Below the pieces are notes generated by a model. The model had not been told where the DNA came from, did no database searches, and saw only the letters and a list, made by a program, of their open reading frames with translations. Below, one piece after another: positions 11,014 to 52,770 of a stretch of 64,000 bases of DNA. The stretch's first letter is position 1. Each line of letters opens with the position of its first letter. The DNA lies in assembly GCA_021768085.1 (NCBI GenBank), contig JAETOJ010000007.1, forward strand, positions 62,001 to 126,000, read 5' to 3'. The position numbers were made by a program, and so were the translations under genes. The DNA is from Bacillota bacterium. GTDB lineage: Bacteria; Bacillota; Clostridia; Oscillospirales; Oscillospiraceae.

Positions 11014-11532
11014 TTACTTGTCCTGGAAGCTGTCCCGGAAGGCGTTTTGCACCAGCCCGTTCTTCTGACAGATGATGAGGGCCACGTACCGCCCCTCCCG
11101 GAGGATCACCGCCTGCTCCGTCAGGGGTACCTGGCTGGGGTCATACTCCCGGAAGGTGCCCTGCCGCTGCTCCACGTGCTTGTGGAGGGAGTCCATCAGG
11201 GTAGCGGCGCTGCCCGCGTCCTTCAGCTTGACCACCGCGATCTCCTCCGCGGAGCCCGACTTGGCGCAGGCGTAAAAGTATTCGTCCACCAGCTGATAGT
11301 CCAGATCGGACAGGTAGGTAAAGTCCGTCTCCGCCAGCGCCCCGCCGCCATGGCTTGTCACAATCGTCAGCTCCGGCAGGGTGGGATCCGCCGCGATCAG
11401 TTCGTCCAGCAGGGCGCTCATGTCCACGTCCTTGCCGGGATCCACCTGCTCCTTGGGGCCGCAGCCCCAGGCGCAGACCAGCAGCAGCGCCGCCAGGGCG
11501 GCGCAGGCAATCCGCTTCACACTGTTTCTCAT
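11014..11532 (-). CDS. DUF4358-like lipoprotein
   Basis: Signal peptide with lipobox-like LLLVCAWGC; SGSAEEIAVVKLKD...VEQRQGTFREYDP...REGRYVALIICQ. Confidence 0.75.
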   Translation of the reverse strand: MRNSVKRIACAALAALLLVCAWGCGPKEQVDPGKDVDMSALLDELIAADPTLPELTIVTSHGGGALAETDFTYLSDLDYQLVDEYFYACAKSGSAEEIAVVKLKDAGSAATLMDSLHKHVEQRQGTFREYDPSQVPLTEQAVILREGRYVALIICQKNGLVQNAFRDSFQDK

Positions 11533-11543
11533 GCCGCGCCCCC

Positions 11544-12770
11544 TCAGTCGATGACCACGCTGCCGCCGTTTTTCGTCCCGGGCAGGGGCTCAGCGACGGG
11601 GGGCTCCTCGGGGTCATCCCCCGTGTCGCCCAGCTCCGCCGGATCCAGCCCGAAGGCTTCCGCGATGGCCCGGATGACGGCCTTGGCCTCGGGGGAGGTT
11701 GAGTCAAAGCTGGGCTCCGGCTCGTCGTCGTCATACCGCTCCACCAGCAGGCCCAGGATGTCGTTTCCATCCTCCCCGGGGTACCACATGGCCTGGAAGT
11801 ATGCGTCCTCTATGGTGGCCCTCATGGCGTTCTCCAGCAGTGCCGCCAGGAAATTCGCCTTGGGCTGCTCCTCCTCGGTCAGCGGGGTCTTGAAGCGGTA
11901 GTACACCGCGCCCTGCTTCTCGTCCAGGGCCTTTTTGAACTGAGCGGGCACGTCCAGCAGACTGTCCACCTCCACGCTGTTCTGCACGGCGGGGGAGTAC
12001 TTCACGCTGTCCGCCACCGGCAGGGCGGAGCCGTCCCAGCTGTGGCCCATGTCGCAGATAGTGTCGGTCATGTTGAAGTTGGCGAACTCCGCCCCGTGGG
12101 CGTCGCTGTATACGTCCACATGATACCACTGATCCGGCTCCAGCTCCACCAGATCCCAGGAGTGGTAGTCGTTGTGGACGATGTGGCAGTCCATGCCCAG
12201 CATATTCATGAACAGGCGGAAGGTGGTGGCGTAGCCCACGCACACTGCGTTTTTGCTTTTCAGCACGTCGTGGGGGGTGAAGGGGCTGCCGCCGCTGCCG
12301 GGGCGGATGATCACGCCGTCGGAGCCGTTGTTGCCAATGTTGGCCACCATCCACCGGTAGACGGCCAGCTCCTTCTCATAGTTGTCCATGCCGTCCGAGA
12401 GCACCTCGTCCAGCACGTCCTTGGCCATCTTCAGAGTGTCCTTGTCCTCGGCGCTAAGCTGGCTGTCGTCCCCGCTCTTGTAGGCGTCGGAGATGTGGGT
12501 GGTGGAGCGGATCTCATACTCACCGGCCACCTTGAAGCCGTCCTCCTGGTAGGTGTTCTCCTGCTCCTCCTCTTTAGCCCAGCGATCCTTCTGCTCGGCA
12601 ATGAAGGCGCCCATTTGGTTGGCGTAGTTCTGCTGGGCCTGGGCCTGGTACACATTCAGTCCCAAGCTTCCCACAAGGCACAGAGCCAGCAGCCCCGCGC
12701 CCGCGGCCTTGGCGGCTTTGAGCCCCTTGCCCTGGGTCTTGCCCCCTGTTGTCTCGGTTTCAGTACTCAT
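11544..12770 (-). CDS. membrane-anchored transglutaminase-like domain protein
   Basis: N-terminal TM; NAVCVGYATTFRLFMNMLG (Cys), YHSWDLVEL (His), HVDVYSD (Asp). Confidence 0.85.
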   Translation of the reverse strand: MSTETETTGGKTQGKGLKAAKAAGAGLLALCLVGSLGLNVYQAQAQQNYANQMGAFIAEQKDRWAKEEEQENTYQEDGFKVAGEYEIRSTTHISDAYKSGDDSQLSAEDKDTLKMAKDVLDEVLSDGMDNYEKELAVYRWMVANIGNNGSDGVIIRPGSGGSPFTPHDVLKSKNAVCVGYATTFRLFMNMLGMDCHIVHNDYHSWDLVELEPDQWYHVDVYSDAHGAEFANFNMTDTICDMGHSWDGSALPVADSVKYSPAVQNSVEVDSLLDVPAQFKKALDEKQGAVYYRFKTPLTEEEQPKANFLAALLENAMRATIEDAYFQAMWYPGEDGNDILGLLVERYDDDEPEPSFDSTSPEAKAVIRAIAEAFGLDPAELGDTGDDPEEPPVAEPLPGTKNGGSVVID

Positions 12771-36371: not shown

Positions 36372-37352
36372 ATGGAAACGACCATGCGTCCCGCGGATAT
36401 GAAGCGGATCAATACCCCCGAGCTGGCGGAGGCCTTTATCGCAGAGCAGATCAAGGAAGTGCGCGCCCAGGTGGGGGACAAAAAGGTATTGCTGGCCCTC
36501 AGCGGCGGGGTGGATTCGTCGGTGGTGGCGGCGCTGCTCATCAAGGCCATTGGGAAACAGCTGGTGTGCGTCCACGTGAACCACGGTCTGATGCGCAAGG
36601 GGGAGAGCGAGCAGGTCATTGAGGTGTTCCAGCACCAGATGGACGCCAACCTGATCTATGTGGACGCCACCGACCGCTTTTTGGATCTGCTGGCCGGGGT
36701 GAGCGAGCCGGAGCGCAAGCGGAAGATCATCGGCGGTGAATTCATCAAGGTGTTTGAGGAGGAGGCCCGGAAGCTAAAGGGCATCGACTTCCTGGCCCAG
36801 GGGACGATCTACCCCGACATTCTGGAGAGCGACGGGGTGAAGGCCCACCACAACGTGGGCGGTCTGCCTGACGACTTCGACTTTGAGCTGGTGGAGCCGG
36901 TGCGGCTGCTGTTCAAGGACGAGGTGCGCTGCGTGGGCCACGCCCTGGGCCTGCCCGCCTCTATGGTGGAGCGGCAGCCCTTCCCCGGCCCCGGGCTGGG
37001 GGTGCGGTGCTTGGGGGCCATCACCCGGGATCGGCTGGCCGCCCTGCGGGAGTCGGACGCCATCCTGCGGGAGGAGTTTGCCGCGGCAGGCTTGGCGGAC
37101 AAGGTGTGGCAGTTCTTCACGGTGGTGCCGGACTTCCGCTCCACCGGCGTGCGGGACGGCAAGCGGGCCTTTGACTGGCCGGTGATTATCCGGGCGGTGA
37201 ACACGGTGGACGCCATGACCGCCACGGTGCCGGAGATCGACTGGGCGGTACTGAAGAAGATCACCGGTCGGATTCTGGCGGAGGTGCCGGGGGTCTGCCG
37301 GGTGTTGTATGATCTGACGCCCAAGCCGGTGGGGACGATCGAGTGGGAATGA
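36372..37352 (+). CDS. guaA: GMP synthase ATP-pyrophosphatase subunit (no glutamine amidotransferase domain)
   Basis: LLALSGGVDSSVVAALL, VNHGLMRKGESEQV, QPFPGPGLGVRCLG, C-terminal GTIEWE. Confidence 0.95.
   Translation: METTMRPADMKRINTPELAEAFIAEQIKEVRAQVGDKKVLLALSGGVDSSVVAALLIKAIGKQLVCVHVNHGLMRKGESEQVIEVFQHQMDANLIYVDATDRFLDLLAGVSEPERKRKIIGGEFIKVFEEEARKLKGIDFLAQGTIYPDILESDGVKAHHNVGGLPDDFDFELVEPVRLLFKDEVRCVGHALGLPASMVERQPFPGPGLGVRCLGAITRDRLAALRESDAILREEFAAAGLADKVWQFFTVVPDFRSTGVRDGKRAFDWPVIIRAVNTVDAMTATVPEIDWAVLKKITGRILAEVPGVCRVLYDLTPKPVGTIEWE
37340..37352 (+). repeat. att core direct repeat, left copy (= guaA stop region)
   Basis: CGAGTGGGAATGA identical to 44517..44529. Confidence 0.92.
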
Positions 37353-37478: not shown

Positions 37479-38009
37479 TCAGTCTTTGCCCAGCCTGTTC
37501 TTAAAAGCTGCTGTCAGGGCGTCGCTCAATTCCTTGGACGGGACTTTGACCCATCTGCGGGTGGTGTCATACTGGGGATAGTTGTACCGCCAGCGGTCAT
37601 AGTCCTCCCTGGTGATTTCCCCGGCCTCCAGCTTCTTGGCCTGCTCTCCCCAGGCGGACAGCATTTCAAGCATGGAGTGATAGGTCTTGCCCCTGGACTT
37701 GTCCAGCCGCAGGCAGATTTCACCGTCAATCTCCCCGATGGTCAGTCCCCGTATGTCCTCCAAGGCAAAGAGGGTGTGCATAAGGCCAATGTCGCTGTCT
37801 ATGTCGGGGACGGTCAGGGCATCGGTGGAGACTTCAAAGAAGCCTGCCAGCGCCCTGGTCAGGTCGGCCTTGGGGGTACGGCTCCCGGTTTCGTACTGAG
37901 CCATACGCACGTCGGCGGAGCGTTCGGGAAAGCCCACCACCTGACCGAGATATTTCTGCGTGACACCTTTCTTATTGCGGAAAAAGCGAATACGTTCACC
38001 GATTGCCAT
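37479..38009 (-). CDS. XRE-family transcriptional regulator
   Basis: MAIGERIRFFRNKKGVTQKYLGQVVGFPERSADVRMAQYETGSRTPKADL HTH. Confidence 0.9.
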   Translation of the reverse strand: MAIGERIRFFRNKKGVTQKYLGQVVGFPERSADVRMAQYETGSRTPKADLTRALAGFFEVSTDALTVPDIDSDIGLMHTLFALEDIRGLTIGEIDGEICLRLDKSRGKTYHSMLEMLSAWGEQAKKLEAGEITREDYDRWRYNYPQYDTTRRWVKVPSKELSDALTAAFKNRLGKD

Positions 38010-38046
38010 AACTGCCAACTCCAATCTATGTAATGGGGACACTTGA

Positions 38047-38075
38047 AGTATAACAGATATGTTTAGAACCGTCAA
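38047..38075 (-). promoter_or_regulatory. promoter TTGACG-17-TATACT for the XRE gene
   Basis: minus strand TTGACGGTTCTAAACATATCTGTTATACT. Confidence 0.75.
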
Positions 38076-38198: not shown

Positions 38199-38402
38199 AT
38201 GGAGAACAGATTTATCCGGGTGGACGAGGTTGCGGACGAGCTGGGCGTGTCGAGGCCCTACGCCTACAAGCTCATCCGACAGCTCAACGAGGAACTGAAA
38301 GGAAAGGGCTACATCACCATTGCGGGGCGGGTCAACCGCCAGTATTTCAATGAGCGGCTTTACGGGGCCGGAAAGGAAGTGAACGAAAATGCCGGTATTT
38401 AA
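38199..38402 (+). CDS. excisionase-like small HTH protein
   Basis: MENRFIRVDEVADELGVSRPYAYKLIRQLNEELKGKGY; RBS GAAAGGAGG; overlaps int start. Confidence 0.75.
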   Translation: MENRFIRVDEVADELGVSRPYAYKLIRQLNEELKGKGYITIAGRVNRQYFNERLYGAGKEVNENAGI

Positions 38403-39465
38403 GGACGAAAAGCGGGGCACATGGTACGTCATGGCGTGGTATCGGGACTGGACGGGGGAGCGCAAGCAGAAGTGCAAGCGGGGCTTTCCCACCAAGCGGG
38501 AAGCCCAGGAGTGGGAACGCAGCTTTCAGATGCAGACCAGCGCCGACATGGATATGACCTTTGAAGCCTTTGTGGAGCTTTACACCAAGGATGTGCGGCC
38601 CCGGCTGAAGGAGAACACCTGGCTGACAAAGGAGAACATCATCCAGAAGAAGATTCTGCCCTACTTCGGAAAGCGGAAAATCAGCGAGATCACCACCAAA
38701 GACGTAATTGCGTGGCAAAATGAATTGCTGGCCTACCGGGACGAACAGCGCAAACCCTACTCCCAGACCTACCTTAAAACCCTGCACAACCAACTCAGCG
38801 CCATTTTCAACCACGCTGTCCGCTTCTACGAGCTACGTTCCAATCCCGCCGCCAAAGCCGGGAATATGGGGACAGAGGAACGAAAGGAAATGCTGTTCTG
38901 GACGAAAGCGGAGTATCAGCGGTTTGCCGAGGCCATGATGGACAAGCCCCTCTCCTACTACGCCTTTGAGATGCTCTACTGGTGCGGTATCCGGGAGGGG
39001 GAGCTGCTGGCTCTCACCCCGGCGGACTTCGACTTTGGGGCTGGGACGGTGAAGATCAGCAAGTCCTATCAGCGGCTTCACGGCGAGGATGTGGTTACCA
39101 CCCCGAAAACCAAGAAAAGCAATCGTACCATCAAAATGCCCAATTTCCTCTGTGACGAAATGCGGGACTACCTGGGGATGCTCTACGGGGTCAAGAAGAA
39201 AGACCGCATTTTCACGGTTACAAAGAGCTACCTCCATCATGAGATGGACAGGGGAGCGAAAGAGGCCGGGGTCAAGCGGATCAGGATTCACGATTTGAGA
39301 CACAGCCACATTTCCCTGCTGATTGATATGGGCTTTTCCGCTGTGGCGATTGCCGACCGGGTAGGCCATGAGAGTATCGAAATCACCTATCGCTATGCCC
39401 ACCTGTTTCCGTCCAAGCAGACGGAGATGGCGGACAAGCTGGACTTTGAAAGGACGGGAGCATAA
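38389..39465 (+). CDS. int: tyrosine recombinase / integrase
   Basis: N-terminal arm-binding domain, core-binding domain, catalytic RIHDLRHSHISLLIDMG...RVGHESIEITYRYAHLF. Confidence 0.97.
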   Translation: MPVFKDEKRGTWYVMAWYRDWTGERKQKCKRGFPTKREAQEWERSFQMQTSADMDMTFEAFVELYTKDVRPRLKENTWLTKENIIQKKILPYFGKRKISEITTKDVIAWQNELLAYRDEQRKPYSQTYLKTLHNQLSAIFNHAVRFYELRSNPAAKAGNMGTEERKEMLFWTKAEYQRFAEAMMDKPLSYYAFEMLYWCGIREGELLALTPADFDFGAGTVKISKSYQRLHGEDVVTTPKTKKSNRTIKMPNFLCDEMRDYLGMLYGVKKKDRIFTVTKSYLHHEMDRGAKEAGVKRIRIHDLRHSHISLLIDMGFSAVAIADRVGHESIEITYRYAHLFPSKQTEMADKLDFERTGA

Positions 39466-39797
39466 TGTCAGCCAAGAATTTGGATAATCACAACCGTTGG
39501 AGAAATCGTCAGGTAGCGTTCAGACTGTCGCCGGAGGAGGCCGATTTGTTGGACACCTATGTGCGCCTGTCCGGGCTGACCAAGCAGGACTACATCACCC
39601 GGCGGCTGCTCAACCGGGACATTGTAGTGCAGGGCAATCCCAGGGTCTACAAGGCCCTGCGTGACCAGCTCGCCGCCGTCCTGGAGGAGCTACGGCGGGT
39701 CAGGGATGGGGCTGGCATGGACAGCGAATTGCTGGACACCATCAACCTGATCGCAAAAATCATGGAAGGAATGAAGGAGGACACGAATGGCAGATGA
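39465..39797 (+). CDS. MobC-like relaxosome accessory protein
   Basis: RNRQVAFRLSPEEADLLDTYVRLSGLTKQDYITRRLLNRDIVVQGNPRVYKALRDQL. Confidence 0.8.
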   Translation: MSAKNLDNHNRWRNRQVAFRLSPEEADLLDTYVRLSGLTKQDYITRRLLNRDIVVQGNPRVYKALRDQLAAVLEELRRVRDGAGMDSELLDTINLIAKIMEGMKEDTNGR

Positions 39798-40775
39798 AAA
39801 AGAAAAGACTGTCCTGAACCCGTCTGTTGGCGCAGACGGAGGACAGCCAATCCTATGTACCGATACCAGTATAACAGACCATCCGCAGGATTGCAACGAC
39901 GAATTTTCCCCGGAGCACATTGAAAAACTGTTGCGGGAAATGAAGCAGGCAAACGATCCGGCGAATTTACCCACCGTCACCATGCGGGAGCTTTACGAAA
40001 CTGTCTACCAGAGCAGACCGCCCGTCATTGACGGTCTGCTCTGCTCCGGCACCTACCTCTTTGCCGGAGCGCCCAAGGTGGGCAAGTCGTTCCTGGTGGC
40101 CCAGCTCGCCTACCACGTCAGCTGGATGAACAGCTTGACAAATTTGTGCGGGAGCATCCCGACACCCGGCTTATCATCATCGACACCTTGCAGAAGGTTC
40201 GAGAGATGGGCAGTGAGGCGTACAGCTACGCCGACGATTATCAGATCGTCGGCAAGCTGAAGCAGTTTGCCGACAGGAATGGGCTTTGTCTGCTGGTTGT
40301 CCACCACACAAGGAAACAACCCTCCGGGGATAAGTTTGAGATGATTTCCGGCACAACGGGTCTGCTGGGCTGTGCGGATGGGGCGTTTATCCTCCAAAAA
40401 GAGAAGCGCACCGACAGCGCCGCCACGCTGGACGTAGTAGGCCGTGACCAGCCCGACCAGCGGATACACCTGGTACGGGATGAAGTGCGGCTCACCTGGG
40501 ATTTCGACCATGCAGAACGAGAGCTGTGGAAGGAACCGCCTGACCTCCTGCTGGTAAAGCTGGCAGAGCTGGTGACGGTTGAACGGCCCGTATGGAGCGG
40601 AACGGCAACGGAGCTGGTAACCGTTCTTAACTGTGACCTGACCGCTATTGCGCTGGCGATGCGGCTGAACATCCGGGCAAGTAAACTGCTGAACGAGTAC
40701 GGCATCCGCTATGAAAGCAACCGCACCCACGCCGGGCGGACGATTACGCTCACACTGATGAACCAAGAAGCGTGA
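39787..40775 (+). pseudogene. AAA (RepA/DnaB-like) ATPase disrupted by internal deletion with frameshift
   Basis: Walker A part (FAGAPKVGKSFLVAQLAYHVS) in one frame; LDEQLDKFVREHPDTRLIIIDTLQKVREM...VVHHTRK resumes in another frame at about 40125 with no intervening Walker A-to-B segment. Confidence 0.82.
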
Positions 40776-41079: not shown

Positions 41080-42423
41080 ATGGCAAGAGGCGACGGTATC
41101 GACCGTACCAACGCAAGAAATATGAGGCTGACGGCTACCAAAATTGGCAACACCCAGCAGCACAACGAACGTGAAAAGGATTCCTACGTCAATCAGGATA
41201 TTGTGCCGGAGCGGACACCGCTCAACATCCATTTCAAAACTCCTTCCGCCGGGTATCAGGAGATGTTCGCACAGATGGAGGCCGATGGCGTGATCTCCAC
41301 CCGTGGCATTAAGGCGGATGCCTTTCGGTATGGAGAGCTGGTCTTTGATGTCAACTCCGCCTACTTCTACAATCATGGCGGCTACGACTTCGCAAAACAA
41401 TTTTACACCGATGCTTACAAATCCGCAATAGAAATCGTAGGAGGAGAGCAATATATTTTGTCGGCGGTCATGCACGCCGACGAGCGCAACCGGGCCATGT
41501 CCGAGGCGTTGGGGGAGGATGTGTATCACTATCACCTCCATGTGGTCTATGTCCCGGTTGTACAGAAGGAAGTCCGATGGACAAAGCGGTGCAAGGACAA
41601 GTCCCTGGTGGGCAAGGTCAAGGAAACCATTATGCAGGTGAGCATGAGTAAGAAGTGGGCTTCAAAGCCCGCCGTTGATGATGTGACCGGCGAACCGCTT
41701 CTGACAGCCAAGGGAAAGCCTGTCCTCAGAAAGTCGTACAGTGTTTTGCAGGACGATTTTTTCCGGGCCATGCGGAACGCCGGGTATGATGACCTGGAAC
41801 GAGGGGAACGGGGCAGTTCCGAGGAACATTTGACGGTCACGCAGTTTAAGGTGGAGCGTGAGAGAGAGCGGCTTGCCCAGCTTCAAGCGGCAACTGTGCT
41901 GGCCCAGGCCGAGGCCGAGAAAAGGAAAAAGGAGGCAGACGCCGCCGAAAAGAAAGCGGCCCAGGCAAAGGCCAAGCTGGACGATGTGGCCCCGTTGCTG
42001 AAGGGTATGGAAAAGCTGGCGGCGGACTACTCTGACGACCCGGAGCGGACTTTGCCGGAGGCGGGGCCGCTGGAATCGGCCAGGGCCTACCGGGAGAAGA
42101 AGGCCAAGCCCCTTTGGGAGAAGATTGTCAAGGTGCTGCGCTCGGTCTATCGGGCCTATTTCGACCTCAAGAGCAGTTTTGAACAGTTGCAGAGGGCCTA
42201 TGACCGGGAGGTCAGCAAGAACAGTTCTCTTTCAGCCAGGATTTATGAGGTCTGTGCTGAGAGAGACAGTCTGAAGGGGCAGGTCAGGGACTATGAGCGG
42301 GTCAGGAGGGCCATTGGCCCGGAACAGGCAGACAGGATATTGGAAGTTGCTCATCAGCAGGAACAGGCTGAAAAGGAACGGAGGCGAGGGACAAGGCAAA
42401 AAGCGAGGTCAGGCGCACGATAA
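41080..42423 (+). CDS. MobV (Mob/Pre) family relaxase
   Basis: RTNARNMRLTATKIGNTQQHNEREKDSYVNQDI; ILSAVMHADERNRAMSEALGEDVYHYHLHVVYVP; coiled-coil C-terminus. Confidence 0.93.
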   Translation: MARGDGIDRTNARNMRLTATKIGNTQQHNEREKDSYVNQDIVPERTPLNIHFKTPSAGYQEMFAQMEADGVISTRGIKADAFRYGELVFDVNSAYFYNHGGYDFAKQFYTDAYKSAIEIVGGEQYILSAVMHADERNRAMSEALGEDVYHYHLHVVYVPVVQKEVRWTKRCKDKSLVGKVKETIMQVSMSKKWASKPAVDDVTGEPLLTAKGKPVLRKSYSVLQDDFFRAMRNAGYDDLERGERGSSEEHLTVTQFKVERERERLAQLQAATVLAQAEAEKRKKEADAAEKKAAQAKAKLDDVAPLLKGMEKLAADYSDDPERTLPEAGPLESARAYREKKAKPLWEKIVKVLRSVYRAYFDLKSSFEQLQRAYDREVSKNSSLSARIYEVCAERDSLKGQVRDYERVRRAIGPEQADRILEVAHQQEQAEKERRRGTRQKARSGAR

Positions 42424-42468: not shown

Positions 42469-42497
42469 TTGTCAACAGGTATTCTTGGTGTTATAAT
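42469..42497 (+). promoter_or_regulatory. promoter TTGTCA-17-TATAAT for the IME cargo gene
   Basis: TTGTCAACAGGTATTCTTGGTGTTATAAT. Confidence 0.75.
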
Positions 42498-42600: not shown

Positions 42601-44268
42601 ATGAAAAGAGCCCTTTCCCTGCTACTATGTGTTGCTCTGTTGCTGACGTTGTTAAGTGCATGTCAGGAACCTGCGTCAGAATCCACCGCAACCGTTTCTC
42701 CAACTGTTGCGGAAATAGAGTGGACTGTTGGTGAACTGGTCAATTTGGCCTTTGAACACTCTGGATGTGAGGATATAGATGGTTTGGAAGCTATCTCTGC
42801 TGACCTTGACCGAGAGACGCTGATAGTCTATATTGAAAATGTCTATGGTATCCAAGAATCTTGGGAAGATGCGGCATTGGTTCGGGCCACTGGAATGTCT
42901 GCATTTGAAATTGCTGTGCTGCGCATGGAGGACAGCACAGCTGCCGCTCAGGCGGTTACTGCATTGGAAGATTACATTGCCAACAGACAGGGGGATTTTG
43001 TGGGCTATGCTCCTGCGGAGGCGGACATGGTAGCAAACGGCAGCATTATTCAGGATGGGCCGTTTGTAGCATTGTTCATTTGCCTGGATGTTGATTATGC
43101 CTCTGAGGTAGTGACCCAGGCTCTCAAAGGTGAAATACTGCCTGAGCCAGAACCGACCATACCCGCAGATGCTATCACCGATGTGAAGGAGTTGCGAGAT
43201 TGGTTGGTGTCCTACTGCGGGATGGAGGAAACAGAGCTGGAGTTACTGGATGACAGCGATTCGGACGCTTTGAACGCCTATATTGAGGACAGTTATGGTT
43301 TGAATCGGAACCAGTGGATGGAATGTGCCATCGCACGGGGGACAGGGGACTCTGCTTTTGAGGTAGCGGTGATGACTGGCGCTAATGATTGGGCACTGTC
43401 CTCCGATATTAAGAAATCTTTGGATTGGTACTTAAATAGCAAACAAATTGCATTTCAGGATAATGCTGAGGAGAAATCTATGCTAAGTCAGGCCGTGTCT
43501 GCCGGCGGTGTTGCTCGTTCGGAAGAATATGTGTATATTGTCCTGCTGGCCTGTAAAGAAGCGAAACAGACCGCAAATGCTTTTGCGGAAACGGCAGCAA
43601 CCTATGGGGTTACATTTTCAACGCGAAATGGAATATTTCAGGAGGACCCGAATTACTCAGGCCGTATACTATTTGTTCAGCCGAATAAGATTGACATGTC
43701 CTTTTATGATACAACCGCCATCTGCACCGCTTGGAATACGGGAGATGTTTCTGGGCTGTCCAGCTATGACAGGGATATATATGATGCAGCCAAAGTGGTG
43801 CTGAATGAAGTCTTGAAAGAGGATATGAACGATTTGGAGAAAGAAATTGCCATTTACGACTGGCTGGTCAGCAACGTGAATTATGACGGAGCGTACCAGG
43901 ACGTAATGAAAGAAACCTCCGGCGAATCTGCCACTCCCTACGGGGGACTTGTAAACCGCACAGCAATATGTTTGGGATATGTTACGACCTTCCAACTGCT
44001 TATGGATTTGGCCGAAGTAGAGTGCATTACTGTTGCTGGCTCAACCTTCGCCAGTCAGGAGGATCATGGCTGGAACTTGGTTCGGATAGATGGGAATTGG
44101 TATTGCACAGATGTGACTTGGGATGCTAACCGTCAGGCGTGGGGAGGCGGAGGAGAAAAGGATTGGAAGTTCTTCAATATCACCAGCGATGACATGGCCG
44201 CAACTGACCATCAATGGGATTACGCCAACACGCCCGAAGCTATCACTACGGGGAGCGGTCGGGGCTGA
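42601..44268 (+). CDS. lipoprotein with two DUF4358-like repeats fused to a transglutaminase-like domain (IME cargo)
   Basis: Lipobox LLSAC; repeats YIENVYGIQESWEDAALVRATGMSAFEIAVL and YIEDSYGLNRNQWMECAIARGTGDSAFEVAVM; TGase triad TAICLGYVTTFQLL / DHGWNLVRI / CTDVTWDA. Confidence 0.88.
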   Translation: MKRALSLLLCVALLLTLLSACQEPASESTATVSPTVAEIEWTVGELVNLAFEHSGCEDIDGLEAISADLDRETLIVYIENVYGIQESWEDAALVRATGMSAFEIAVLRMEDSTAAAQAVTALEDYIANRQGDFVGYAPAEADMVANGSIIQDGPFVALFICLDVDYASEVVTQALKGEILPEPEPTIPADAITDVKELRDWLVSYCGMEETELELLDDSDSDALNAYIEDSYGLNRNQWMECAIARGTGDSAFEVAVMTGANDWALSSDIKKSLDWYLNSKQIAFQDNAEEKSMLSQAVSAGGVARSEEYVYIVLLACKEAKQTANAFAETAATYGVTFSTRNGIFQEDPNYSGRILFVQPNKIDMSFYDTTAICTAWNTGDVSGLSSYDRDIYDAAKVVLNEVLKEDMNDLEKEIAIYDWLVSNVNYDGAYQDVMKETSGESATPYGGLVNRTAICLGYVTTFQLLMDLAEVECITVAGSTFASQEDHGWNLVRIDGNWYCTDVTWDANRQAWGGGGEKDWKFFNITSDDMAATDHQWDYANTPEAITTGSGRG

Positions 44269-44516: not shown

Positions 44517-44529
44517 CGAGTGGGAATGA
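44517..44529 (+). repeat. att core direct repeat, right copy
   Basis: CGAGTGGGAATGA identical to 37340..37352. Confidence 0.92.
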
Positions 44530-44552
44530 CCGTCAAAGAGAATGATTGCAAA

Positions 44553-50142: not shown

Positions 50143-51330
50143 TCAGTCCGCCCCGCCGTTGTTGGCCAGGTACGGCAGCGCCTCATAGTCCCGGATACAC
50201 ACCACGATGTCGGGCTGCACCGTCCGGATATAGTCCCGGAGGCTCATCTCCTTGTAGTAGCGCAGATCCAGGGAGTGCATCTCGTTGAAGCTGAGGTAGG
50301 TCACGCACTCCATGGCGTTGGTGAAGCTGTCCCCGTAGATCAGGATGCTGGGCAGCTCGTCCCGGTGGGTGTCGATGACGGTGCGGGGCCAGTCTCCCCC
50401 CATATACAGGTTGTAGGTCACCAAATCGTCCTCCGAGGCGGGCAACTGGTAGATCTCCGCTGGGGAGGGGTTGCCGTTGTCCGTCCGGGTGAAGGGCACC
50501 TCCTCCACCGGGCGCAGAATGGACAGGGACTCCTCCTTTGTCACCAGATTCAGCAGCTTGCGCTCCCGGGAGCCCATATATTCGTTGGGCAGGGTCTGGA
50601 AGGTCACGTCTGACCGGCTGAGTATGGGAAAGGCAAAGCCGGACTCCGCTGCCACCTTCTCCATCACCAGGCGGTAGGTCTCAAAGGCCCCTTCCATGGT
50701 GTAGTGGTTGTCCACCCTGGAGCCGAAGCCGTCCGGATGGCCCATGGCGTCGAATTCCGCCCGGATATCCAGGAAAGGGACGTCCCGCTCCGCCAGGGCC
50801 TGTCCCATACTGGTTACCATGTCCTGGCTGTAGTCCCCTCGGTTGTAGAGATACCAGGGGTAGTCATCCTCAAAGTAGGCGTACTGGCAGGGGACTGCCA
50901 CATAGCAGAAATAGCCGCCATACTCTGCCGCCGTGTCCTGGATGCCCTTCAAGTTCTCCGCCATATTGGCCGACCACCGTTTTACAGTGGCTGAATCCAC
51001 AATCTCCCGGCCCACGGGCAGATAGGGCAGCAGGCGATCCTCGGTGAGTACGATATCGTTCACCACCGGGCGGTGGAGCAGCAGGTCGGCCTGGGTCTTG
51101 ACCTTTAGCAGGGTGTTGCGCAGGGCGGCGTGATCGTCCAGATACCGTTCCAGCTGTGTGGTGTAGCTGCCGTCCCCCGCCGACTCCCGGGTGAGTGCGG
51201 GAAAGGCTGCCAGGGTTCGGTTCTCAAAGAAGGAAACCTTTTCTGGCTCCCGGCCCACAGTAAACAACAGTGCCGCCGCCAGAAAGCCCAGGAAGCAGAC
51301 GGTCATAAAAAGCTCGGAGATCCGTTTCAT
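50143..51330 (-). CDS. DHHW-family protein (AlgJ/AlgX-like)
   Basis: ENRTLAAFPALT, DSYTTQLERYLDDHAALRN-like, SRVDNHYTMEGAFETYR, ILIYGDSFTNAM. Confidence 0.85.
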   Translation of the reverse strand: MKRISELFMTVCFLGFLAAALLFTVGREPEKVSFFENRTLAAFPALTRESAGDGSYTTQLERYLDDHAALRNTLLKVKTQADLLLHRPVVNDIVLTEDRLLPYLPVGREIVDSATVKRWSANMAENLKGIQDTAAEYGGYFCYVAVPCQYAYFEDDYPWYLYNRGDYSQDMVTSMGQALAERDVPFLDIRAEFDAMGHPDGFGSRVDNHYTMEGAFETYRLVMEKVAAESGFAFPILSRSDVTFQTLPNEYMGSRERKLLNLVTKEESLSILRPVEEVPFTRTDNGNPSPAEIYQLPASEDDLVTYNLYMGGDWPRTVIDTHRDELPSILIYGDSFTNAMECVTYLSFNEMHSLDLRYYKEMSLRDYIRTVQPDIVVCIRDYEALPYLANNGGAD

Positions 51331-51345
51331 ACTGTCCCGCCTTTC

Positions 51346-52770
51346 TCAGAATTGGAAGTAGATGAAGGGGTTGAAGCTGCCGGTGGCCAGCTTCAGGTAG
51401 GACAGCCCCAGCAGGGCCAGCGCCGCCAGCTTGGGGGCCCATTCCCGGGCCAGGGCGGCGGGGAGGGCCTCCCGCCCCGCCAGCCTGTCCTGGAGCCAGC
51501 CCTTCACCGGCATGGCCGCCAGGACACAGGCGATCCACTCCGGCCAGTATTCCAGCAGCAGGTAGACTGCCTGACCGTCCCTCGCCCCGGCGCCCAGGCC
51601 GAACATGGCGGCGAGGTAGCTAAAGGCGGCGGGCAGGTCGGGGGCGCGGAACAGCACCCAGCTGAGGATCACTGCCAGCATCGTGTAGATGTGGCGGAGG
51701 GGGACGGGGAGGCGATCCAGGGCTTTGCCCCACAGGAATTTCTCTCCCAGAAGCAGCAGCAGGAACCACCCACCCCAGAGCACAAACGTCCAGCTGGCCC
51801 CGTGCCAGAACCCGGTGAGCAGCCACACCACCGCCAGGTTGAAGATGTTCCGCCCCCGGGAGCAGCGGCTGCCCCCCAGGGGGATATAGACGTAGTCCCG
51901 GAACCAGGTGGACAGGGAGATGTGCCACCGCCGCCAGAACTCGCCCACCGACTTGGAGATATAGGGGTAGTTGAAATTCTCCTCAAAATGGAAACCGAAC
52001 ATCCGCCCCAGGCCGATGGCCATGTCCGAGTAGGCGGAAAAGTCGAAATAGATCTGGAAGGTATAGGCGACGGCCCCCACCCAGGCGTGGGAGGCGGAGA
52101 GCCAGATTGGGGGCGTGGTGAACGCGGCGTCCGCGATCTCCCCCATGACGTTGGCCAGCAGCATCTTCTTGCCCAGGCCGAACAGGAAGCGCACCACGCC
52201 CTGAGAGAACTCGGACAGATTCTCGCTTCGGAGGGTGATCTCCCGCTCCACGGTGGAGTAGCGCACGATGGGCCCCGCCACCAACTGGGGGAACAGGGCC
52301 ACGTACAGCGCCACATAGAGGGGGTTGCGCTGGCAAGCGGCGTTTCCCCGGTACACGTCGATGACGTAGCTCAGCCCCTGGAAGGTGAAAAAGGAGATGC
52401 CGATGGGCAGCACAATCTGGGGGACGGGGAGCTGAGCCCCCAGAGCGTTGAGGTTTTCCGCGAAAAAGCCGGCGTACTTGAACCAGGCCAGCATCCCCAG
52501 CCCGAAGGCGCAGGCGCTCCACAGCCCTATCCGACGGATAGCCCTGGGCCGCCCCTGAGCCGCCAGCAGGCCGCACAGGTAGTTGACCGCGATGGAGGAG
52601 AGGAGCACGGGCATATAATTGACCCCGCCGCACAGGTAGAAGAACAGGCTGAAGGCCAGCAGGACGAAATTCCGCGCCGCCCGGAACCGCTTGGGGACGC
52701 AGAAATAGAGCAGAAGCAGGGCGGGGAGGAAAAAGAGCAGGAACAGGATGCTGCTGAATACCATAAACAC
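51346..52770 (-). CDS. MBOAT-family O-acyltransferase (AlgI/DltB-like)
   Basis: YVIDVYRGNAACQRN, FWRRWHISLSTWFRDYVYIPLGGSR, LLTGFWHGASWTFVLWG. Confidence 0.95.
   Translation of the reverse strand: MFMVFSSILFLLFFLPALLLLYFCVPKRFRAARNFVLLAFSLFFYLCGGVNYMPVLLSSIAVNYLCGLLAAQGRPRAIRRIGLWSACAFGLGMLAWFKYAGFFAENLNALGAQLPVPQIVLPIGISFFTFQGLSYVIDVYRGNAACQRNPLYVALYVALFPQLVAGPIVRYSTVEREITLRSENLSEFSQGVVRFLFGLGKKMLLANVMGEIADAAFTTPPIWLSASHAWVGAVAYTFQIYFDFSAYSDMAIGLGRMFGFHFEENFNYPYISKSVGEFWRRWHISLSTWFRDYVYIPLGGSRCSRGRNIFNLAVVWLLTGFWHGASWTFVLWGGWFLLLLLGEKFLWGKALDRLPVPLRHIYTMLAVILSWVLFRAPDLPAAFSYLAAMFGLGAGARDGQAVYLLLEYWPEWIACVLAAMPVKGWLQDRLAGREALPAALAREWAPKLAALALLGLSYLKLATGSFNPFIYFQF

Follow-up and report, generated by a model that had tools for sequence, protein, structure and literature searches.

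A mobilizable element at guaA in an Oscillospiraceae bacterium carries a candidate envelope enzyme that joins DUF4358 repeats to a transglutaminase fold

Introduction

What does a small integrative and mobilizable element (IME) carry when its last gene encodes a lipoprotein built from DUF4358 and transglutaminase-like domains, and where does such a gene come from when the chromosome around it holds the same parts as two adjacent genes? The initial annotation of this locus, made from the letters of the DNA, read the cargo as the two genes of the host locus in fused form and proposed that the two domains act together at the cell surface. We examined these claims in the window (the whole stretch of 64,000 nucleotides analysed here, from an Oscillospiraceae bacterium) and in related loci of other genomes.

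The cargo gene belongs to a mobilizable element inserted at the guaA 3' end

The cargo is the last gene of a 7.2-kb IME integrated at the 3' end of guaA (Table 1). Its assignment to such an element in the initial annotation was borne out: genes for an integrase, a NikA-like mobilization protein, an AAA_25 helicase and a Mob_Pre relaxase lie between att cores, and the ORF list of the 7.2-kb element holds no large conjugation pore genes. In an alignment with the element of Pseudoflavonifractor sp. 60 (L074), the match starts at 37335 and identity stops at 44530. Compared with that copy, the element of the window has two gaps. One, of 166 bp, causes a frameshift in the helicase gene that leaves two overlapping ORFs matching the two halves of PF13481 (the helicase of L074 is intact, at 384 aa); the other, of 88 bp near the left end (37456), includes half a terminator hairpin. 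The window's copy may be incapable of replication or transfer, or these gaps may be a fault of assembly.

The promoter of its own that had been proposed for the cargo was also found, as a promoter-like site that is kept in two relatives of 91% identity (L075 and L076) despite diverged flanking bases.

Table 1. Features of the IME and of the host two-gene locus in the window
Feature	Position	Strand	Evidence or remark
Host protein with one DUF4358 domain and a lipobox-like AWGC	11014..11532	-	PF14270 3.3e-17, 63.1 bits
Host transglutaminase-fold protein with membrane anchor, encoded directly upstream of the DUF4358 gene	11544..12770	-	PF01841 1.3e-8
attL core CGAGTGGGAATGA, spanning the guaA stop codon (I-E-W-E-stop)	37340..37352		repeated at right end
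IME HTH regulator	37479..38075	-	weak HTH Pfam matches below cut-offs; same place in related guaA IMEs
Tyrosine integrase	38389..39465	+	PF00589 2.5e-19, PF14659 6.4e-22
NikA-like mobilization protein	39465..39797	+	PF21983 1.1e-11
AAA_25 helicase gene, broken by 166-bp deletion at ~40122	39787..40775	+	
Mob_Pre relaxase	41081..42423	+	PF01076 2e-31
Cargo promoter TTGTCA-17-TATAAT	42469..42497	+	11/12 consensus matches
Cargo lipoprotein gene	42601..44268	+	555-aa ORF
Cargo lipobox LSAC	Cys21		
Cargo DUF4358 repeat 1	aa 43-175		
Cargo DUF4358 repeat 2, degenerate	aa 195-331		
Cargo transglutaminase-fold domain	aa 371-540		C457, H489, D504
attR core CGAGTGGGAATGA	44517..44529		identical to attL core

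Two DUF4358 repeats precede a transglutaminase fold with an intact triad

Pfam, hhalign and AlphaFold together confirm the two DUF4358 repeats and the transglutaminase domain first read from the sequence, and the lipobox is present too. The cargo matches DUF4358 (PF14270; E 5.9e-19, 68.7 bits, residues 78-161), well above the curated cut-off of 25 bits, as does the host protein (63.1 bits), so that the profile places both in one family. It also matches Transglut_core (PF01841; 2e-7, 31.7 bits, residues 402-504, for a cut-off of 23 bits). Pfam detects two DUF4358 stretches in the cargo. The second (227-312) scores weakly by sequence, at 38 bits, and profile-profile comparison with hhalign aligns the two repeats at 99.5% probability (E 4e-22). 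The AlphaFold model of the cargo (mean pLDDT 89) has the order H-E-H-E-E-H-H-E-E-H in both repeats, and the model of the host DUF4358 protein (pLDDT 84.5) has the same order. The R..DF.GYAP signature is gone from repeat 2; elsewhere its R, F, Y and P show no variation. In the cargo, DUF4358 is duplicated, fused to a transglutaminase domain and located on a mobile element.

The Cys-His-Asp triad of the transglutaminase-fold domain is invariant across 56 aligned homologues. The best match of this domain in the PDB is TglA of S. pyogenes (9CRN, E 2e-5), and other matches are TGase, cysteine-protease and LapG-type structures. TglA shares the fold of the cargo at ~20% identity; the match is confined to the transglutaminase part, and no DUF4358 match is reported for TglA. 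The literature searched yielded no paper on TglA, and none on IME cargo of a transglutaminase-like kind. The MAG6410-family proteins of NCBIfam (NF045980) are likewise lipoproteins whose transglutaminase domain is related (E 8.7e-29), but membership of the cargo was rejected, since its score of 100.4 bits falls far short of the 450 required and the match covers just 142 residues. A plasmid or phage origin was rejected as well, a full-length match being present in neither collection.

The cargo gene is under purifying selection, with a dN/dS of ~0.19 between copies. Its silent-site divergence from L075 and L076 is uneven: dS is 0.70 in the first DUF4358 domain (42601-43140) as opposed to 0.08 in mid-gene (0.08-0.25 over the remaining gene), which suggests recombination between alleles or domain exchange.

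DUF4358 genes travel with extracytoplasmic acyl enzymes

No function of DUF4358 was described in the literature searched, where a single paper out of 5.39 million mentions the domain, and its predicted model had no significant match among the solved folds of the PDB; a binding role for this domain is therefore a guess. DUF4358 was present in 96 of 388 Clostridia genomes, about a quarter of those sampled; all 14 control genomes lacked it. From 99 stretches fetched we read 101 DUF4358 genes, leaving out some 20 of the weakest matches and the window's own, and classified their neighbourhoods by profiles built from Pfam-positive seeds, so that a change of thresholds may shift the counts by a few.

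A stronger association of DUF4358, missed by the initial annotation, is with genes of predicted extracytoplasmic SGNH acyl enzymes. Operons with an MBOAT O-acyltransferase, a DHHW (SGNH) protein or both hold 64 of the 101 DUF4358 genes. The DUF4358 gene usually stands directly upstream of that for the MBOAT protein (median gap 21 bp), and some DUF4358 domains are fused to DHHW. Another 22 genes directly adjoin a Lipase_GDSL_2 (SGNH) gene, seven examples of which were scanned and confirmed by Pfam and the others assigned by similarity to those. Three adjoin a transglutaminase gene, including one that is part of an MBOAT/DHHW operon as well, and 13 have none of these neighbours. By comparison, MBOAT or DHHW turned up at just two sites in 349 kb of control stretches taken from similar genomes, each time next to a transglutaminase gene; one of these sites is a two-gene transglutaminase-DUF4358 locus. 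At the level of genomes, DHHW occurs in 89 of the 96 with DUF4358 as against 102 of the 292 without it (Fisher p 3e-25, kinship between genomes being ignored).

In Bacillus cereus, DHHW proteins paired with MBOAT O-acetylate the secondary polymers of the cell wall (PMC9487903), and for clostridia a role of such pairs in the acetylation of cellulose has been put forward (PMC9487903, PMC7710045). Operons of the PatA/PatB1 type, which encode an MBOAT plus DHHW O-acetyltransferase, are those that hold DUF4358 genes and some of the fused DUF4358-transglutaminase genes; the cargo has no MBOAT and no DHHW of its own. The proximity to O-acyltransferase and SGNH esterase genes is a first functional clue for DUF4358, and points to envelope modification in gut bacteria.

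The host two-gene arrangement fits the same association, because the order transglutaminase, DUF4358, MBOAT recurs in three other genomes (G095, G555 and G488), followed in G095 by DHHW. MBOAT and DHHW genes are absent from the host two-gene locus itself and from the IME. Among 76 fused DUF4358-transglutaminase genes, 12 lie in or near MBOAT/DHHW operons and 58 have no MBOAT or DHHW nearby.

Several single loci deserve mention. The genome G095 has a four-gene operon transglutaminase-DUF4358-MBOAT-DHHW (L217, 2138-6402), and the window's own genome has a further operon DUF4358-DUF4358-MBOAT-DHHW on contig C103 (L216, 3543-7713). The window contains a DHHW/AlgX-like and MBOAT pair at 50143-52770, beside which no DUF4358 gene was detected in the window. 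In five DUF4358-SGNH loci (L285, L295, L301, L308 and L309), an apparent gene for a C-terminal processing protease, recognised by eye, lies ~1 kb upstream.

A candidate membrane-tethered acyl-enzyme of the cell envelope

The best explanation of these data, to which we give a probability of about one half, is that the cargo acts on the cell envelope as a cysteine acyl-enzyme, tethered to the membrane and spread horizontally, with DUF4358 linking it to the target or complex of the O-acylation machinery. Its signal peptide and lipobox would anchor the protein outside the cell, where the C-terminal domain, with its triad intact, would act as a transferase, amidase or protease. The cargo would be catalytically active, by acyl transfer or by hydrolysis, and its probable target is a polymer of the envelope or wall, or a protein carried on such a polymer. 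DUF4358 would be the docking module that directs the enzyme to a target or complex of the machinery formed by MBOAT and SGNH/DHHW proteins. Because neither MBOAT nor DHHW genes are found in the IME or near 58 of the 76 fused genes, any cooperation of the cargo with O-acylation would have to occur in trans. The same scarcity of MBOAT and DHHW around most fused genes counts against the proposed mechanism, as does the loss of the R..DF.GYAP motif from repeat 2.

A wider reading, which we put forward tentatively and hold to be somewhat unlikely, makes DUF4358 a general adaptor or substrate-docking domain for extracellular enzymes of Clostridia that attach acyl groups or take them off. It would cover MBOAT/DHHW systems, SGNH esterases and transglutaminase-fold enzymes, with IMEs spreading a self-contained version that rewrites the envelope. 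If true, these elements would change the envelope chemistry of their carrier.

The element has moved between species and its cargo slot is variable

The element of Pseudoflavonifractor sp. 60 is 99.9% identical to that of the window, with a few bases different over the aligned 7.2 kb. Recent movement between distant hosts follows from this near-identity, since the GuaA proteins of the two bacteria are only 55% identical; whatever the state of the window's copy, such a pair of sequences implies past transfer of the IME. The cargo gene also occurs in L075 and L076 (89-90% protein identity), whose backbones encode another relaxase. A small mobilizable element would thus pass a putative envelope enzyme between species, and not only drug resistance. 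L075 (1-10240) has tandem guaA IMEs, one of which carries the DUF4358-transglutaminase cargo; the cargo of the other consists of ArsR, a SaoE-like efflux protein and a third small protein.

Known IMEs of the guaA 3' end, such as ATE-1 (tet(W)), share the tyrosine integrase and the integration site, and hold a tet gene in the slot where the window's IME has a putative envelope enzyme. Sister elements have in this slot genes for TetM/TetW-type ribosome protection (L199, 8159-10078; also L198, L201 and L208), an Lsa-like ABC-F protein (L205, 4869-6407), cytosine methylases with Vsr, or ArsR with SaoE-like efflux.

The occupation of one slot by resistance and DNA-methylase genes suggests the main rival explanation, namely that the cargo confers a selectable resistance or immunity, as a lipoprotein that shields its carrier from a surface-acting antimicrobial, a bacteriocin or a phage. 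We consider it unlikely, though it deserves attention: the cargo had no match in PADLOC, which covers known anti-phage defence genes, or in PHROGs, so that its identity with a known defence or phage gene was rejected, and many chromosomal copies of the gene lack any mobile context.

Location on a mobilizable element could also suit a lipoprotein of entry or surface exclusion that keeps rival conjugative elements out, and there is precedent in small lipoproteins such as TrbK, which act in this way as cited in PMC5704250. Exclusion would not call for an enzyme of 555 aa whose triad is conserved, and the guaA IMEs of L075 sit side by side with one of them carrying the cargo gene; the chances of this explanation are slim. 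We give similarly poor odds to a protease or cross-linker secreted to the surface, with proteins of the host, the diet or neighbouring cells as substrates. The fold relatives of the C-terminal domain, cysteine proteases and LapG-type enzymes, speak for such a role, but it leaves the link of DUF4358 to MBOAT and SGNH genes unexplained.

The cargo probably descends from a chromosomal family of fused genes

The acyl-enzyme reading has the IME acquiring a member of a chromosomal fused family. The initial annotation was right that the host has the same parts as separate adjacent genes, both of which Pfam places with the cargo in PF14270 and PF01841. Pairwise BLAST aligns the cargo with the host DUF4358 protein at 36% over 66 aa (8e-13) and with the host transglutaminase at 37% over 179 aa (3e-29). 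The nearest relatives of the cargo are other fused genes, and one of them is found elsewhere in the same genome: contig C20 encodes a fused paralogue of the same length, 54% identical from end to end, and the DNA around it resembles that of the host at 62% GC.

Fused and adjacent arrangements of the two domains do recur in other genomes, which supports the proposal that they act together, in a pattern broader than the one first described. A scan of one genome per species gave 80 relatives, from which 76 fused DUF4358-transglutaminase genes were read, chiefly in Oscillospiraceae and Lachnospiraceae and also in Treponema. As the scan was seeded with fused proteins, fused matches were favoured, so that the scan shows fusion to be common but gives no precise proportion.

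In a tree of 140 transglutaminase domains, all those linked to DUF4358 form one supported clade (100/96). Within this clade the host two-gene transglutaminase groups with four other two-gene loci (100/100), and most loci of that group lie in MBOAT/DHHW operons; the two-gene form belongs to the lineage of transglutaminase-DUF4358-MBOAT-DHHW operons. The IME copies form a 100/100 group within the fused proteins that have two DUF4358 copies. Since the tree separates the two-gene and fused groups, the cargo would not be a fusion of the neighbouring host locus. That the IME gene arose by fusion of the host genes, or that the host locus is its split form, is thus very improbable despite the shared domains and significant similarity: descent from the two-gene locus was rejected on the tree, where the cargo lies deep within the fused clade, and on the closer paralogue of C20, and base composition differs too (GC3 0.49 in the cargo, 0.88 in the host two-gene locus). 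The IME would instead have taken up its cargo from the chromosomal fused family.

Other combinations of the two domains exist: in L110 (6801-9728) and L111 (6939-9629), single ORFs of 975 and 896 aa join one DUF4358 to two transglutaminase domains.
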